The notes under the pieces: model-generated
What the model was told of the DNA's origin: nothing
Databases searched by the model: none
Seen by the model: the letters and a program-made list of their open reading frames with translations, nothing else
Assembly: GCA_919902985.1 (NCBI GenBank)
Contig: CAKKSC010000008.1
Coordinates: 1-48,197 of the forward strand
Length of the DNA stretch: 48,197 bases
Origin: Desulfuromonadales bacterium
GTDB lineage: Bacteria; Desulfobacterota; JAENJC01
Direction: 5' to 3'
Position numbers and translations under genes: made by a program
In this document: positions 8,511-42,937 of the stretch, piece after piece
How the letters are laid out: each line of letters begins with the position of its first letter
Position numbering within the stretch: position 1 is the stretch's first letter

Positions 8511-8536
8511 ACTCAAAAATTCTGCGAAACCGCTCT

Positions 8537-8604
8537 ACCGCTGAGGCGCGGAGACGCTGAGATAAGCCTTTGCTAAGTTCTCTGTGCCTCTGCGTCTCTG
8601 CGGT
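8537..8604. repeat. Inverted repeat of the CCGCAGAGACGCAGAG type
   Basis: The left arm ACCGCTGAGGCGCGGAGACG and right arm CTCTGCGTCTCTGCGGT are imperfect reverse complements. They fill most of the 137-bp gap before pmbA. Confidence 0.75.
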
Positions 8605-8647
8605 AAATCCTGTATTGGTGATATAAATAGACCTGAATGGGGTAATT

Positions 8648-9985
8648 ATGGAAATAAACAAGATTAAAAACCTTATCCTTAACGAGGTCAAGAGCGAAGG
8701 GATAAAGGAGTTCGAGATATATATAAACTTAGGCCGCTCTCTCTCCATTGAATCCAAAGGGGGGAAGATTGATTCCTTTGAGGCCTCGGAAACTTCAGGT
8801 GCATCGTTGAGGGTATTCACTGACGGGAGGCAGGGGTTCTCTTACTGTACCGATTTCAGCAATGATTCAGTAAAGCGGATGGTGGATGATGCCGCCATGG
8901 GCTCACTGCATGTCACCCCCGATGAGTTCAGGATATTGCCTGAATCTGCTGCTTCAATCCCCTCCGTATCAGTTTACGATGCAGGAATGAAGGATGTCCC
9001 TGAAGAGGAAAAGATCGAAAGGGCAAAGGCCCTTGAGGCGGCTGTCCTCTCCTTTGACAGCAGGATTAAAAGAGTAAGGAAGGCTGCATATTCGGAGTCA
9101 GAATATAGTGTGGCTATAGTGAGTTCCAGAGGGGTTGATGTCAGCCACAAAGGTACATTCTGCTCCGCAAGTGTATCTGCCCTGGCCGAGGAGGGTGCAG
9201 AGTCTGAAATGGGTTCGGACTTTGAGTCAGTTAGATTCTATGACGGTCTTGATGTGAAACTTATAGGGAAAAGGGCGGGGGAGAATGCCGTTCGATTGCT
9301 GGGAGGAAGGCGGATAAAGACTGTAAGGTGTCCTGTTGTCCTTGAAAACAGCGTTGCTACTGATTTTTTAGGCGTTATCGCCTCATCTTTCATTGCCGAT
9401 TCGGTCCAGAAAGGGAAGTCTTTGTTTGCCGGTAAGATCGGAACATCCGTTGGCTCGGCAATAATAAATGTCTTTGACGACGGCCTTTATCCAGGTGGAG
9501 TTGGGACAGCTCCTGTGGATGGGGAAGGTGTGCCGAGGCAGAGGACGCCCCTGATTCAGGGCGGTGTGCTTAAAGGTTACCTCTATGACACCTACACTGC
9601 GACAAAGGACAAGGTCAAGTCAACAGGCAATGCTGTAAGACCTGGGATCAAGGCGCCGCCGTCCTGCGGTCTCTCAAATCTATATATAGAAAAGGGTCAT
9701 CTTGGCATGGATGCCCTTTTGAGTGAGGCTGGAACAGGGCTTTTTGTGACAGAGGTGATGGGCATGCATACTGCAAATCCTGTATCAGGTGATTTTTCCG
9801 TTGGCGCTTCCGGGATATGGATAGAAAACGGTAAAAAGGCTTACCCTGTAAAAGGGGTTGCCATAGCCGGAAATATCATAGATATACTTAAGAGCGTGAC
9901 TGCGCTCGGCGGCGACCTAAGGTTCTTTGGTAAGATAGGCGCCCCGTCATTATTAATATCCGAGTTAATGGTCAGCGGTGAATAG
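8648..9985 (+). CDS. pmbA: TldE/PmbA-family metalloprotease subunit
   Basis: The 445-residue protein matches the TldD/PmbA family throughout, with an N-terminal domain (SKGGKIDSFE...GASLRVFTDG) and a C-terminal barrel-like domain (VLENSVATDFLGVIASSF, GTAPVDGEGVPRQRTPLIQGG, SGIWIENGKKAYPVKGVAIAGN). The HExxxH zinc site typical of TldD is not seen, so this is the PmbA/TldE-type partner. In Escherichia coli the TldD/TldE pair processes microcin and CcdA. No tldD partner is adjacent. An upstream GGGG provides a plausible ribosome site. The 3' end overlaps the next gene by 8 bp. Confidence 0.88.
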   Translation: MEINKIKNLILNEVKSEGIKEFEIYINLGRSLSIESKGGKIDSFEASETSGASLRVFTDGRQGFSYCTDFSNDSVKRMVDDAAMGSLHVTPDEFRILPESAASIPSVSVYDAGMKDVPEEEKIERAKALEAAVLSFDSRIKRVRKAAYSESEYSVAIVSSRGVDVSHKGTFCSASVSALAEEGAESEMGSDFESVRFYDGLDVKLIGKRAGENAVRLLGGRRIKTVRCPVVLENSVATDFLGVIASSFIADSVQKGKSLFAGKIGTSVGSAIINVFDDGLYPGGVGTAPVDGEGVPRQRTPLIQGGVLKGYLYDTYTATKDKVKSTGNAVRPGIKAPPSCGLSNLYIEKGHLGMDALLSEAGTGLFVTEVMGMHTANPVSGDFSVGASGIWIENGKKAYPVKGVAIAGNIIDILKSVTALGGDLRFFGKIGAPSLLISELMVSGE

Positions 9986-11126: not shown

Positions 11127-12226
11127 TGAAGGTAGATGAAAAGTTTGCAAATCTGAAAGAAGATCTGGAAGGATTGAGAGAAGAGCAAAAGAGTATTGAA
11201 AAGCAATCAAGGAAGCTCGAAGGAAAGATATTGGAACTCTATACCCTTTACAGCATAAGCAAGACCCTTAGCCTTTCACACCAGTTGGATGATCTGTTTA
11301 ACGGGATGATGGAGGTGCTTGGGAATACCCTTGGGATAGATGAATATTGTCTTATGCTCCTTGAGGGGGAATATCTGATTATTAAGGTAGCTCACGGCTT
11401 TAGTGAGGACATTACCAAGATAAGGTTTCATCTTGACGAGGGGATTAGCGGGAAGGTTGCCAGCAGCGGCAAGTCCCTTCTTATTCATGATGTAAGCAAG
11501 GAGAAGGATTTTCTTTATTATAAAGGGCTCAAGCGGGACATCGGCTCATTCCTGTCTGTTCCTCTTGTTGCGGGTGGTAATGTCATAGGGGTACTTAATA
11601 CCCACAGAACAAAAAAGAACGCCTTCAAAAAAGAAGACCTGGATTTTTTTGCGGCTGTTTCCGAGCATGTAACTGTAGCCATAGAAAAGGCAAGGCTTTT
11701 TGAGAAGACAAAGGAGGATGCGGCCAAAGACGAGCTTACCCAGCTTTATAATCGCAGGTTCTTTTTTGAAAAGCTCGGTAAGGAGATGAAGAGGTCGAAG
11801 CGTTATAAGAAGGTCTTTTCCATTGTGATGTTGGATATTGATTACTTCAAGGTGTACAACGACCTTTACGGACACCTCCAGGGTGATAGCGCCCTCAGGC
11901 AGACAGCCAGGGTGGTACAGCAGAATCTCAGAGGCGAGGACACAGTTGCCCGTTTCGGAGGGGAGGAGTTCATACTGCTTCTGCCTGAGATAGGCAGGGA
12001 GGGCGCTGTAACGGTAGCTGAAAAAGTGAGGAGTTGTATCGCTGAAGAGAAAAATGTTGGAGAGGAACTCCTGCCGGGAGGCAAGCTTACTGCAAGCTTC
12101 GGTGTTGCCTCATATCCTGAAGACGGTGAAGAAGGGCTTCAACTGATAGATGTGGCGGACAAGGCTTTGTATTTAAGCAAACAAAAGGGGAGAAACAGGG
12201 TCTTCTCCAGCAGCGATCTGCCCTGA
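11126..12226 (+). CDS. GAF-GGDEF diguanylate cyclase
   Basis: The 366-residue protein makes cyclic di-GMP from GTP. It has an N-terminal coiled coil (about 8-45), a GAF sensor domain (about 45-190) and a GGDEF domain (about 200-355) with active-site GGEEF at 278-282. An inhibitory RxxD site (Arg269-Asp272) sits five residues before it, predicting product inhibition. I chose ATG 11126, which overlaps the preceding stop as TAATG and has AAGGAGG 5 nt upstream. No membrane segments are visible, so the GAF ligand is probably cytosolic. The stop overlaps queA (ATGA). Confidence 0.92.
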   Translation: MKVDEKFANLKEDLEGLREEQKSIEKQSRKLEGKILELYTLYSISKTLSLSHQLDDLFNGMMEVLGNTLGIDEYCLMLLEGEYLIIKVAHGFSEDITKIRFHLDEGISGKVASSGKSLLIHDVSKEKDFLYYKGLKRDIGSFLSVPLVAGGNVIGVLNTHRTKKNAFKKEDLDFFAAVSEHVTVAIEKARLFEKTKEDAAKDELTQLYNRRFFFEKLGKEMKRSKRYKKVFSIVMLDIDYFKVYNDLYGHLQGDSALRQTARVVQQNLRGEDTVARFGGEEFILLLPEIGREGAVTVAEKVRSCIAEEKNVGEELLPGGKLTASFGVASYPEDGEEGLQLIDVADKALYLSKQKGRNRVFSSSDLP

Positions 12227-13311
12227 TGAAGGTATGCGATTTTGACTTTACCCTTCCAGAAGAGCTGATAGCCCAGGAACCATGTGAGGAACGGGACCAT
12301 TCCAGGCTGATGGTAGTGAATAGAGAAGGCGGTGGAATTAAGCACCGGCTTTTCTTTGAAATAATAGATTACCTTAAGCCAGGAGACCTTCTTGTTATCA
12401 ATGACACCAGGGTAATCCCTGCAAGGCTTGTTGGGAAAAAGGGCACAGGAGGAAAGGCCGAGATATTCCTATTAGAAAGGGATAGTGGTATAGAAGATGT
12501 CTGGGAGTGCCTTGTAGGCGGGAAGAGGATAAGGCCCGGAGTGTTTATCCAGTTTAATGATAATTTGAAGGGCGAGGTATTGGAAGAGGTTGGTGATGGC
12601 AGGTTTAAGATAATATTTCATACCGACAGGCCTTTTGAAGAGGTGTTGGAAGAGGTCGGGCAGGTCCCTCTGCCGCCGTATATAAGCAGGAAAGGGGACT
12701 GCCCCGGATTTAGGGACGAAGCGCAGCGTAGTCGTAGAATCGGGACTGTCCCCGTAATGCAGGATAAAGAACGCTACCAGACTGTCTTTGCAGATAAAAA
12801 AGGGGCTGTGGCTGCCCCCACTGCCGGCCTTCACTTCACTGACGCCCTTATTAAAAAGATAAAAGCTAAGGGGATCGATATTGCCTCTGTAACCCTTCAT
12901 GTCGGACCTGGGACCTTTCTTCCTGTCAGGGTTGAGAATATTGAGGAACACAGGATGCTCCCGGAAAGGTATGAGATCCCTTCCGCTTCAGCGGAAAGGA
13001 TAAACAGGGCAAAGGCTGAAAATAGAAGAGTGATAGCTGTCGGTTCGACATCTATGCGGACCCTGGAGGCTGGGTCTGATGAAAAAGGCATTGTGAGAGC
13101 AGGAAAGGGCAAGACGTCTATTTTTATATATCCAGGTTATACCTTCAAGGTTGTAGACACCCTGATAACCAACTTTCACCTTCCCAAATCTACTCTCCTC
13201 ATGCTTGTCTCTGCATTTGTCGGCAAGGAGTTGATATCTAAGGCGTATAGAGAGGCAATTGAAAAAAAATACAGGTTTTACAGCTACGGCGATGCAATGA
13301 TGATTATATAA
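12226..13311 (+). CDS. queA: S-adenosylmethionine:tRNA ribosyltransferase-isomerase
   Basis: QueA transfers the ribosyl part of SAM to preQ1 in tRNA to form epoxyqueuosine. The start FDFTLPEELIAQEP, the LVINDTRVIPARL block, AAPTAGLHFT and the C-terminal DTLITNFHLPKSTLLMLV are diagnostic. The length is 361 residues. Codons 157-176 are exactly a 60-bp palindromic element inserted between PPYISRK and the conserved ERYQTVFA; removing these 20 codons restores a normal QueA. It begins a queA-tgt-yajC-secD-secF-recJ cluster and overlaps the cyclase stop by one base. Confidence 0.95.
   Translation: MKVCDFDFTLPEELIAQEPCEERDHSRLMVVNREGGGIKHRLFFEIIDYLKPGDLLVINDTRVIPARLVGKKGTGGKAEIFLLERDSGIEDVWECLVGGKRIRPGVFIQFNDNLKGEVLEEVGDGRFKIIFHTDRPFEEVLEEVGQVPLPPYISRKGDCPGFRDEAQRSRRIGTVPVMQDKERYQTVFADKKGAVAAPTAGLHFTDALIKKIKAKGIDIASVTLHVGPGTFLPVRVENIEEHRMLPERYEIPSASAERINRAKAENRRVIAVGSTSMRTLEAGSDEKGIVRAGKGKTSIFIYPGYTFKVVDTLITNFHLPKSTLLMLVSAFVGKELISKAYREAIEKKYRFYSYGDAMMII
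12694..12753. repeat. GGGACTGTCCC element, copy 1, in frame in queA
   Basis: The 60-bp element starts GGGGACTGCCCC and ends GGGACTGTCCCC, with an imperfect inner palindrome around GCGCAGCGTAGTCG. It begins exactly at a codon boundary and adds 20 codons (GDCPGF...IGTVP). It closely matches the copy at 37396-37455 and, with an 8-bp internal deletion, that at 13934-13985. Confidence 0.92.
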
Positions 13312-13313
13312 TT

Positions 13314-13364
13314 GTAGGGGCGGCCCTTGCGGCTGACCGGGAGGGGGCAAGCCCCTCCCCTACA
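13314..13364. repeat. TGTAGGGGC-type inverted repeat, copy 1
   Basis: The arms TGTAGGGGCGG and CCCCTCCCCTACA lie between queA and tgt, with inner pairs of the GGCCCTTGCGG type. It fills most of the 74-bp gap. Confidence 0.8.
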
Positions 13365-13367
13365 TAG

Positions 13368-14585
<1,218 letters not shown>

Positions 14586-37395: not shown

Positions 37396-37455
37396 GGGGA
37401 CAGTCCCGATTCTACGACTTCGCTACGCTACGTCCGTAAATCTGGGACAGTCCCC
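37396..37455. repeat. GGGACTGTCCC element, copy 3, over the trpC stop codon
   Basis: The 60-bp copy is closest to the queA copy (same length, same ends, and GTCGTAGAATC before the terminal GGGACTGTCCCC on the minus strand). It encodes the last residues GTVPDLRT of TrpC and its TAG stop, then extends to within 13 bp of trpF. Confidence 0.93.
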
Positions 37456-40757: not shown

Positions 40758-41744
40758 TTGAATAGTGAAGAGATATTAAAGACGGCGGCGAGGGTGATTG
40801 CCGGTGAAGGGATTGGCTATAAAACTGCATGTGACCTGATAAAACTTGAAGGAGGCAGGATTTATGATCTGTTGGCTGCCAGTAGCAGAATAAGGGAACA
40901 TTTCAAGGGGAACCGTGTGAGCCTCTGTTCCATAGTTAACGCCAAATCCGGCAGATGCCCGGAGGATTGTTCATTCTGCGGCCAGTCGGCCTTCTATAAT
41001 ACCGATGCAACAGAATATGGCCTCATTGAACCGAATGCAATAGCGGAGGCAGCCGAAAAGGCAAGAGGGATGAAGTCCAGGGAGTTCAGTATAGTTACCA
41101 GCGGTACCAGGGTCGAGAGCGAAAAGGAGCTGGATCGTCTCTGTCAGGCCCTTCAGAGGATCGGTGATGGGATGGAGAGGTGTGCATCCCTTGGGATAAT
41201 GACCAGAGATGCCCTTTTAAGACTGAAAGAGGCCGGGCTTGAGAGTTATCATCACAACCTGGAGACTGCCAGGTCTTATTTCCCTTATATATGCACAACC
41301 CATGATTACGATGATGATGTCAATACGGTGAAGATAGCCAGGGAGATGGGATTTAAGACCTGTTGCGGAGGGATATTGGGTCTCGGAGAGACACTGGAGC
41401 AGAGGGTTGAATTGGCCTTTACTTTGAAAGATCTGGACGTGGACTCCGTCCCAATGAACTTCCTGAACCCTATAAAGGGGACCAGGATGGAGGGTATGAA
41501 GACCGTCCCACCTCTTGAAGGGCTGAAGGCCATTGCAGTTTACAGGTTCATACTACCCGATAAAAACATCATAGTTTCCGGCGGCCGCGAGGTTACTTTC
41601 CGAGACCTCCAGAGCATGATATTCATGGCGGGGGCAAATGGGACGCTGATCGGGAACTATCTCCTGACAAAGGGACGTAAGCCCGAGGAGCTTTTGCAGA
41701 TGATCGAAGACCTGGGGCTTGAGGTGGAAGGGTATGAGAATTGA
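40758..41744 (+). CDS. bioB: Biotin synthase
   Basis: BioB is a radical-SAM enzyme that inserts sulfur into dethiobiotin. The cluster motif CPEDCSFC uses Cys67, Cys71 and Cys74; [12 protein letters not shown] and [13 protein letters not shown] are conserved. I chose TTG 40758 because AGGAGG lies 6 nt upstream, giving 328 residues. Earlier ATG codons at 40692 and 40743 lie in or beside the promoter and operator. It overlaps bioF by one base (TGATG). Confidence 0.95.
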
Positions 41745-42937
41745 TGGATTTTATCACCGAAGAAATTGAGAATCTTAAGGGTTCCGCTCTCTACCGCACT
41801 TTACGCACCATCGAAGGCGCGCAGGGGCCGAGGGTTAAAATAGATGGCAAAGAGGTAATCCTCCTCTGCTCCAACAACTATCTCGGACTTGCAGACCATC
41901 CAGGGTTGAAAGAGGCTGCTGTGAAGGCCATTGAGAAGTATGGGGTTGGAAGCGGCGCATCAAGGCTGGTCTCCGGGACGATGGGACTTCACCAGGAACT
42001 TGAGGAAAGGATTGCGAGATTCAAGGGGACGGAGGCAGCTCTGGTCTTTAATTCCGGGTATACCGCCAATGTCAGCGTTATCCCTGCTCTTGTTGGTCGG
42101 GGTGATACTGTATTTTCCGACAAACTCAACCATGCCAGTATAATAGATGGCTGTGTCCTATCAAGGGCTGAGTTTAAGAGGTATCCGCATAAGGACATGG
42201 AGGCGTTGGAACGTTTGTTGGTGGGGGCGTATGGCCATACGCCCCTACTGCCCAAAAACCAACGATGTTTAATCGTTACCGACTCTGTCTTCAGCATGAA
42301 CGGAGACATTGCCCCGTTACCAGAAATAATTGAACTTGCACAGAGGTATGGTGCCATGGTGATGGTGGATGACGCACATGCAACAGGCATCCTGGGGGAT
42401 ACGGGAAAAGGAAGCCTTGAATATTTCGGTTTGAAGTCTGATGATGACATCATCCAGATGGGTACTCTGGGAAAGGCGTTGGGGACATTCGGGGCATATA
42501 TTGCAGGGAGCAGGGAGCTCATTGATTATTTGATTAACAAGGCCAGAGGGTTTATATTCTCTACCTCTCTGCCGCCATCCGTCCTTGGCTCAAGCATTGC
42601 CGCCATTGACCTGGTTGAAGATGAGCCCTCCCTGAGGCAAGCGCTTTGGGAGAAAACATGGTATCTTAAGAAGGGGCTTGAGTCTATCGGGTTTGACACC
42701 ATGGGGAGCGAGACGCCTATAATACCTGTCTTTGTTGGGGACGCGGGAAAGACCATGGAGTTCAGCAGAAGGCTGATGGATGAAGGGATATTTGTCTCAG
42801 GGATCAGGCCTCCGACTGTCCCTGAAGGCAGGAGCAGGCTGAGGGCTACTGTAATGGCAAGTCACAGTTATGATGACCTGGATCGAGCCATAGAAGCCTT
42901 CTCAAAAGTGGGGAGAGAACTTTGTCTTATTTCTTAA
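41744..42937 (+). CDS. bioF: 8-amino-7-oxononanoate synthase
   Basis: BioF is a PLP enzyme that condenses pimeloyl-ACP with alanine. The PLP Lys244 is in [10 protein letters not shown], with [23 protein letters not shown] and [10 protein letters not shown] upstream. The length is 397 residues. Residues about 160-173 ([14 protein letters not shown]) form an insert before the conserved [13 protein letters not shown], encoded by a perfect 22-bp palindrome and flanks. Confidence 0.95.
42224..42245. repeat. Perfect 22-bp palindrome in frame in bioF
   Basis: GGGGCGTATGG and its exact reverse complement meet with no spacer. The wider context (TTGTTGGT ... ACCAACGA) adds a second inverted pair. Confidence 0.85.

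Follow-up and report, generated by a model that had tools for sequence, protein, structure and literature searches.

A short palindromic repeat lying in frame within queA and other conserved genes of a Desulfuromonadales bacterium

The window considered here, which is the whole 48,197-nucleotide stretch of DNA that was analysed, contains the adjoining genes queA and tgt, each of which holds a copy of a short palindromic element, and a further copy at the end of trpC. The features on which the analysis rests are as follows.

12226..13311, + strand: queA, encoding S-adenosylmethionine:tRNA ribosyltransferase-isomerase, the host gene (open reading frame; PF02547, E = 1.7e-135; PDB relatives 1vky, 1yy3 and 1wdi)
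12694..12753, + strand: 60-bp palindromic element, in frame as GDCPGFRDEAQRSRRIGTVP, QueA residues 157-176 (repeat search, fold, AlphaFold)
12694..12705, + strand: left terminal repeat GGGGACTGCCCC, consensus GGGGACTGTCCC (motif matches; copy alignment)
12742..12753, + strand: right terminal repeat GGGACTGTCCCC (motif matches; copy alignment)
13386..14585, + strand: tgt, encoding tRNA-guanine transglycosylase, the second host, adjoining queA (TIGR00430, E = 4.1e-162)
13934..13985, + strand: shorter copy of 52 bp, lying in frame within tgt (motif and genome searches, congener comparison)
37396..37455, - strand: 60-bp copy at the trpC 3' end, between trpC and trpF (repeat search, domain and congener comparison)

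The queA gene starts with an ATG at 12226 and encodes a protein of 361 amino acids, in which the element begins at base 469, the first base of codon 157. Reading this frame bears out the first-pass annotation, which had described an element of exactly 60 bp that starts at a codon boundary, contains no in-frame stop and is followed and preceded by recognisable QueA sequence; specifically, GDCPGFRDEAQRSRRIGTVP is flanked by PPYISRK on its N-terminal side and by VMQDKERYQTVFA on the other. The 60 bp are indeed read as 20 residues, but the ancestral linker of queA has not survived in its exact form, and the claim that exactly 20 codons were added therefore follows from the boundaries of the element. 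In three solved QueA chains the alignment covers either side of the insert and not the insert itself. An AlphaFold model of QueA (25 sequences) has a mean pLDDT of 86.9, and residues 157-178 are its sole segment with a pLDDT below 50. Foldseek recovered the QueA fold from this model (1yy3, E = 3.9e-34), with an rmsd of 9.6 that is perhaps due to a different placement of the two domains.

Two congeneric genomes, G001 and G002, differ at this site; the second of them corresponds to record JACQYJ01, a groundwater MAG labelled Deltaproteobacteria, to which it is 100% identical over 4.1 kb. In G002, whose QueA is 90% identical, the same insert is found at the same place with 3 differences over 60 bases, two of which change residues, whereas G001, whose QueA is 87% identical, has no insert and carries an unrelated 14-residue linker. 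The 20 residues are absent from every distant QueA that can be aligned over the site, and the linkers there are short. The 20 residues are therefore not a conserved part of distant QueA. Since the insert is absent from G001 and distant QueA proteins and is modelled with low pLDDT, it is a lineage-specific, probably disordered loop.

A search of the bacterium's own 2.1-Mb genome (G000) with the 60-mer gave 29 matches, and the congeners hold at least 8 (G001) and at least 40 (G002), all of these counts being search matches and those for the two congeners lower bounds. In the window, the end motif GGGGACTGNCCC has 9 matches with no more than one mismatch, against 1.07 expected, and none of 100 shuffles reaches 9; in the whole genome, the 11-mer end occurs 55 times, compared with 7 times for the reversed control. 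Among 68 copies drawn from the three congeneric genomes, for which both ends were required, 46 are 60 bp long, 16 are 59 bp and 4 are 52 bp. The consensus of the element, GGGGACTGTCCCAGATTTACGGACGAAGCGCAGCGAAGTCGTAGAATCGGGACTGTCCCC, folds as single-stranded DNA into one hairpin that spans the whole element and has a T-T mismatch in its stem (z = -4.3), with z = -7.6 for the 52-bp version and z = -1.8 for the degraded copy in queA. In an alignment of 26 sequences the column pair of the T-T mismatch is constant save for one base, and covariation supports the hairpin, with 97.7% of cells paired and 22 double-sided changes (0 of 500 shuffles), whereas fewer than half of the cells pair in the slid structures used for comparison. 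These data confirm that 12694-12753 is one copy of a dispersed, imperfect hairpin repeat. The proposal that it is a mobile repeat is thus upheld by a genome-wide family that is missing from relatives at the queA site, and the three copies in the window all belong to this one family.

A scan of a collection of sequences for the end-to-end pattern identified a superfamily in at least 118 contigs from many phyla, in which the inner palindromes are clade-specific and the elements measure 48-68 bp, with lengths that are not tied to multiples of three. A literature search with the end sequence GGGGACTGTCCC gave no paper on bacterial repeats. Elements with the same ends also occur in 31 stretches of viral contigs (IMG/VR; L236-L266), and the inner palindromes of two of these, L240 and L244, resemble those of this lineage.

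The further copies in the window are related to that in queA, as had been supposed, but the one in tgt is 52 bp long and not 60 bp. It is shared with G002, and G001 provides a base-exact empty site (GA^GG, where the caret marks the junction). Clean sites of this kind are rare, since at most other loci the linkers have diverged or contain further repeats. The copy at the end of trpC contributes the residues EGTVPDLRT together with the trpC stop codon and lies at the same place in all three congeneric genomes, where it also forms the trpC-trpF spacer; it may contribute to translation coupling or to the stability of the mRNA. A bioF homologue in the window (41741-42937) is without the element. 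Two spacers hold other repeats: between queA and tgt (13312-13366) there is another palindromic repeat (TAGGGGCGGCCC...CCCCTCCCCTAC), which an insert at a different locus of G001 resembles (GGGGCGGCCC...TTGCCCCTAC), and the spacer ahead of the gene at 8648 (8511-8647) has a reverse-strand open reading frame, GFTAETQRHRELSKGLSQRLRASAVE, as from a widespread repeat of the CGCAGAGACGCAGAG type.

In all, about 21 different conserved genes, from the genus and from one other family, have an internal, in-frame element. Eleven of these hosts are found in the bacterium's own genome, with domain matches on or around the insert, and they include queA, tgt, mnmG, queE, cobJ, protoporphyrinogen oxidase, a CHAT-TPR protein, a radical SAM protein (TIGR03960/TIGR03936) and an Fe-S oxidoreductase (locus L062), as well as cbiE, where a shortened copy is joined to a second repeat, and mannose-1-phosphate guanylyltransferase, where the copy is split by a second repeat. 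Additional hosts in G002 are bioF, cobQ, prmC, phosphomannomutase, a GH3 enzyme and an epimerase, which hold the element in that genome only, together with a PP-loop protein, a TPR protein and a second site in a CbiE-CbiT protein, and in G018, which belongs to a different family, the element is found in chorismate synthase. Within contig C9 of the bacterium's own genome, six copies (L034, L055, L042, L043, L052 and L044), several of them in frame, are concentrated in about 14 kb (49623-63809) of a cobalamin cluster comprising cbiM, cbiE, cbiT, cbiG, cobJ and cobU.

The junctions of the element with its surroundings point to a type of enzyme. In 50 of the 68 copies the junction is A^G, or C^T on the opposite strand, against a background of 8.5%, with GA^GG the commonest form, and in the same 68 copies target-site duplications of k = 2-9 show no excess over shuffles. 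TnpAREP enzymes cut at CT beside their hairpins (PMC8266576). Nearly all copies contain GTAG, located 4 nt from the terminal hairpin, and GTAA at the other end. On the strand complementary to the right arm the ends are GGGGACAG, as they are at loci where Y1 transposase genes are flanked by the repeats, and this sequence matches the terminal motif GGGGWSAS, which is given in the TIRYT passages of Di Nocera et al. (2013; PMC3733652) for tyrosine transposases flanked by terminal inverted repeats (TIRs). Y1 genes near elements were sought by profile search. The collection scan has such genes at four loci, three of which, in Eubacterium (L139), Lachnospiraceae (L197) and Planctomycetota (L232), all outside the phylum of the host, have GGGGAC[AT]GTCCCC close to the gene on either side. 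The bacterium's own genome has seven Y1 transposase genes, and no element closely flanks any of these seven or the congener Y1 genes found. The one element near a Y1 gene, at L062, sits within the neighbouring Fe-S oxidoreductase gene.

We consider it likely that the element is a non-autonomous MITE of the RAYT/TIRYT type, which is translated where it happens to lie in frame and is tolerated in loops. The element consists of a pair of inverted terminal repeats, GGGGACTGTCCC...GGGACTGTCCCC, which enclose an inner palindrome specific to the clade, and as single-stranded DNA it folds into one hairpin. It would be mobilised in trans by a transposase that, to judge from ends and junctions, is probably of the RAYT/TIRYT type (HUH, with a single tyrosine, Y1), and which would join the ends into C^T (A^G on the opposite strand) with no target-site duplication. 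In genes this dinucleotide often falls inside a GAG or AAG codon or between two codons. Given that copies of the main subfamily measure 60 bp and that stops occur in just two of their six frames, many genic insertions would stay in frame, presumably yielding about 20 disordered residues in proteins that would still be made and active. Copies in permissive loops would then be kept, probably neutrally, and passed through speciation.

An alternative is that selection, on the element or on the host, has shaped it as a specialised, stop-free coding element of 60 bp or as a source of useful loops. It may be argued for this that the consensus, read directly, is stop-free in four of six frames, that several copies are common to different species, and that 60-bp copies lie within long frames (at least 60 codons) more often than 59-bp copies do (24/46 vs 3/16, p = 0.04; p = 0.02 with hand classification and p = 0.06 with an 80-codon threshold, so p of about 0.02-0.06 by Fisher test). 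By our own estimate, however, four open frames are about what a random 60-mer would give, and the related elements of 48-68 bp do not keep to multiples of three, nor are multiples of three enriched among superfamily copies inside long frames. Moreover, the superfamily is depleted in long frames (29%, compared with 57% at random positions), and, as described above, two of the three base differences between the queA copies of G000 and G002 change residues. The copies within long frames occupy phases +2 (n = 10), -0 (n = 9), +0 (n = 4) and -2 (n = 1). The contrast between the 59- and 60-bp copies fits a picture in which insertions occur at random and are then filtered by purifying selection, and, because only four of six frames are stop-free and the frame-breaking 59-bp subfamily is rarer in genes, coding by the element is probably tolerated and not selected. 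No special adaptation for coding is needed, and we regard the selective explanation as unlikely.

It is also conceivable, but quite unlikely, that the element is a MITE of a classical DDE transposon that moves by cut and paste with target duplication, for which its terminal inverted repeats and MITE-like build would speak, although duplications do not exceed chance at any k from 2 to 9 and the inverted repeats flank Y1 transposase genes at the loci checked. Removal of the insert after transcription or translation, as happens with introns and inteins, which would leave the finished QueA without it, appears very improbable; the hairpin might conceivably serve as an RNA processing site, but the copies within genes keep the frame and contain no stops, neither of which would be needed if they were removed, the frame-breaking 59-bp copies are rarer within genes, and we know of no splicing machinery for the element. 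Finally, that the queA linker is merely variable and resembles a repeat by chance can be dismissed as scarcely credible, for although the length of the QueA linker does vary at this site, the same 60-mer recurs around 30 times, in genes and spacers that have nothing else in common, its ends are defined and its junctions show a preference.

If the element is indeed a RAYT/TIRYT-type MITE, its closest described kin are the TIR repeats of TIRYT transposases (TIRtrons), with which it shares the GGGGWSAS ends and the dispersed copies that are often dimers; at L139, L197 and L232, in other phyla, repeats with such ends also flank Y1 genes in inverted orientation. In the sections of PMC3733652 that deal with them, these families are described as dispersed repeats only, the intragenic survey there being of GTAG and CGTC repeats, whereas here a TIR dimer is read in frame in about 20 conserved genes. 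The GTAG REPs, REPINs and BIMEs of RAYT (TnpAREP) enzymes resemble it in their hairpin, whose stem keeps a conserved mismatch, in a GTAG that lies 5' of the right-end hairpin, and in a CT-type junction with no duplication; they differ in that the GTAG of our element is 4 nt off the hairpin and is not seen in its relatives from other phyla, and in that the element is one long nested hairpin. Intragenic, in-frame copies of GTAG REPs encoding 20-30 amino acids are described in Opitutus terrae and others, and the same part of that study reports in-frame short repeats outside Rickettsia more generally, as GTAG and CGTC REPs of several species whose dimers encode 20-30 residues (PMC3733652).

Coding palindromic elements have been discussed mostly for the Rickettsiales with their reduced genomes. 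The Rickettsia palindromic elements (RPE) and those of Wolbachia are similar to the present element as palindromes that lie in frame in unrelated conserved genes, occur in spacers too and persist between species. The RPE, for which we know of no transposase, are 105-150 bp long and belong to the Rickettsiales, and the element described here, at 52-60 bp, with TIRYT-type ends and a host that is not Rickettsia, is set apart from them by length, organism and end motif, the grounds on which it is presumably unrelated to them in sequence, as the first-pass annotation held. The likeness to RPE drawn by the first-pass annotation accordingly holds for behaviour (in frame, in conserved enzymes, in loops) and not for kind, for which RAYT/TIRYT inverted-repeat dimers are closest. 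In-frame palindromic repeats are known in Rickettsia and Wolbachia (PMC2229807, PMC10969869), and the RPE-bearing enzyme Gmk is translated and active (PMC2229807). ERIC, RU and other enteric MITEs (Delihas, 2007; PMC2229807) are likewise short and non-autonomous, and have open frames that are joined to those of genes, but ERIC has target duplications and TA ends (PMC2229807), both of which our element is without. What differs here is the repeat itself, a TIRYT-type inverted-repeat dimer, as well as the lineage and how many core enzymes are affected: about 20, in queuosine, cobalamin, haem and tRNA modification pathways of an uncultivated, groundwater-type lineage. Given the many phyla in which the superfamily occurs, copies that lie in frame may be widespread and mistaken for natural sequence variation. 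Having subfamilies of both 60 and 59 bp, the family brings its own test of the effect of frame, and the junction at CT links the element to an enzyme that can be tested.

Several of the host loops also hold other repeats. The families that alternate with the GGGGAC element at these linkers are GGTCAGTGGTCAG, palindromes of the CCCCCTTTA type and the GGATGAAGG type: at sites that hold the element in one congener, a second congener often carries a different in-frame repeat, of the GGTCAGTGGTCAG type in the radical SAM protein (TIGR03936) and ManC, a CCCCC...GGGGG palindrome in QueE, and of the GGATGAAGG type in QueA. Such repeats recur in the bacterium's own genome, where GTGGTCAGTGGTCA occurs 11 times compared with none for the reversed control and the pattern CCCCCT...AGGGGG 51 times compared with 8. 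The loops concerned appear to be permissive for repeats of several families. It is a realistic but still tentative possibility that in this genus the linkers of QueE, TIGR03936, ManC and QueA are shared landing pads, at which several independent repeats continually rewrite the loops of core enzymes, and if so, landing pads would be a general means by which free-living bacteria diversify the loops of their proteins.

Composite arrangements were also observed. In cbiE (L055) and mannose-1-phosphate guanylyltransferase (L059) a CCCCC...GGGGG palindrome lies inside the element or replaces half of it with the frame kept, and in the protoporphyrinogen oxidase of G002 (L303) two copies are apparently nested or in tandem, with the frame kept over 525 codons.
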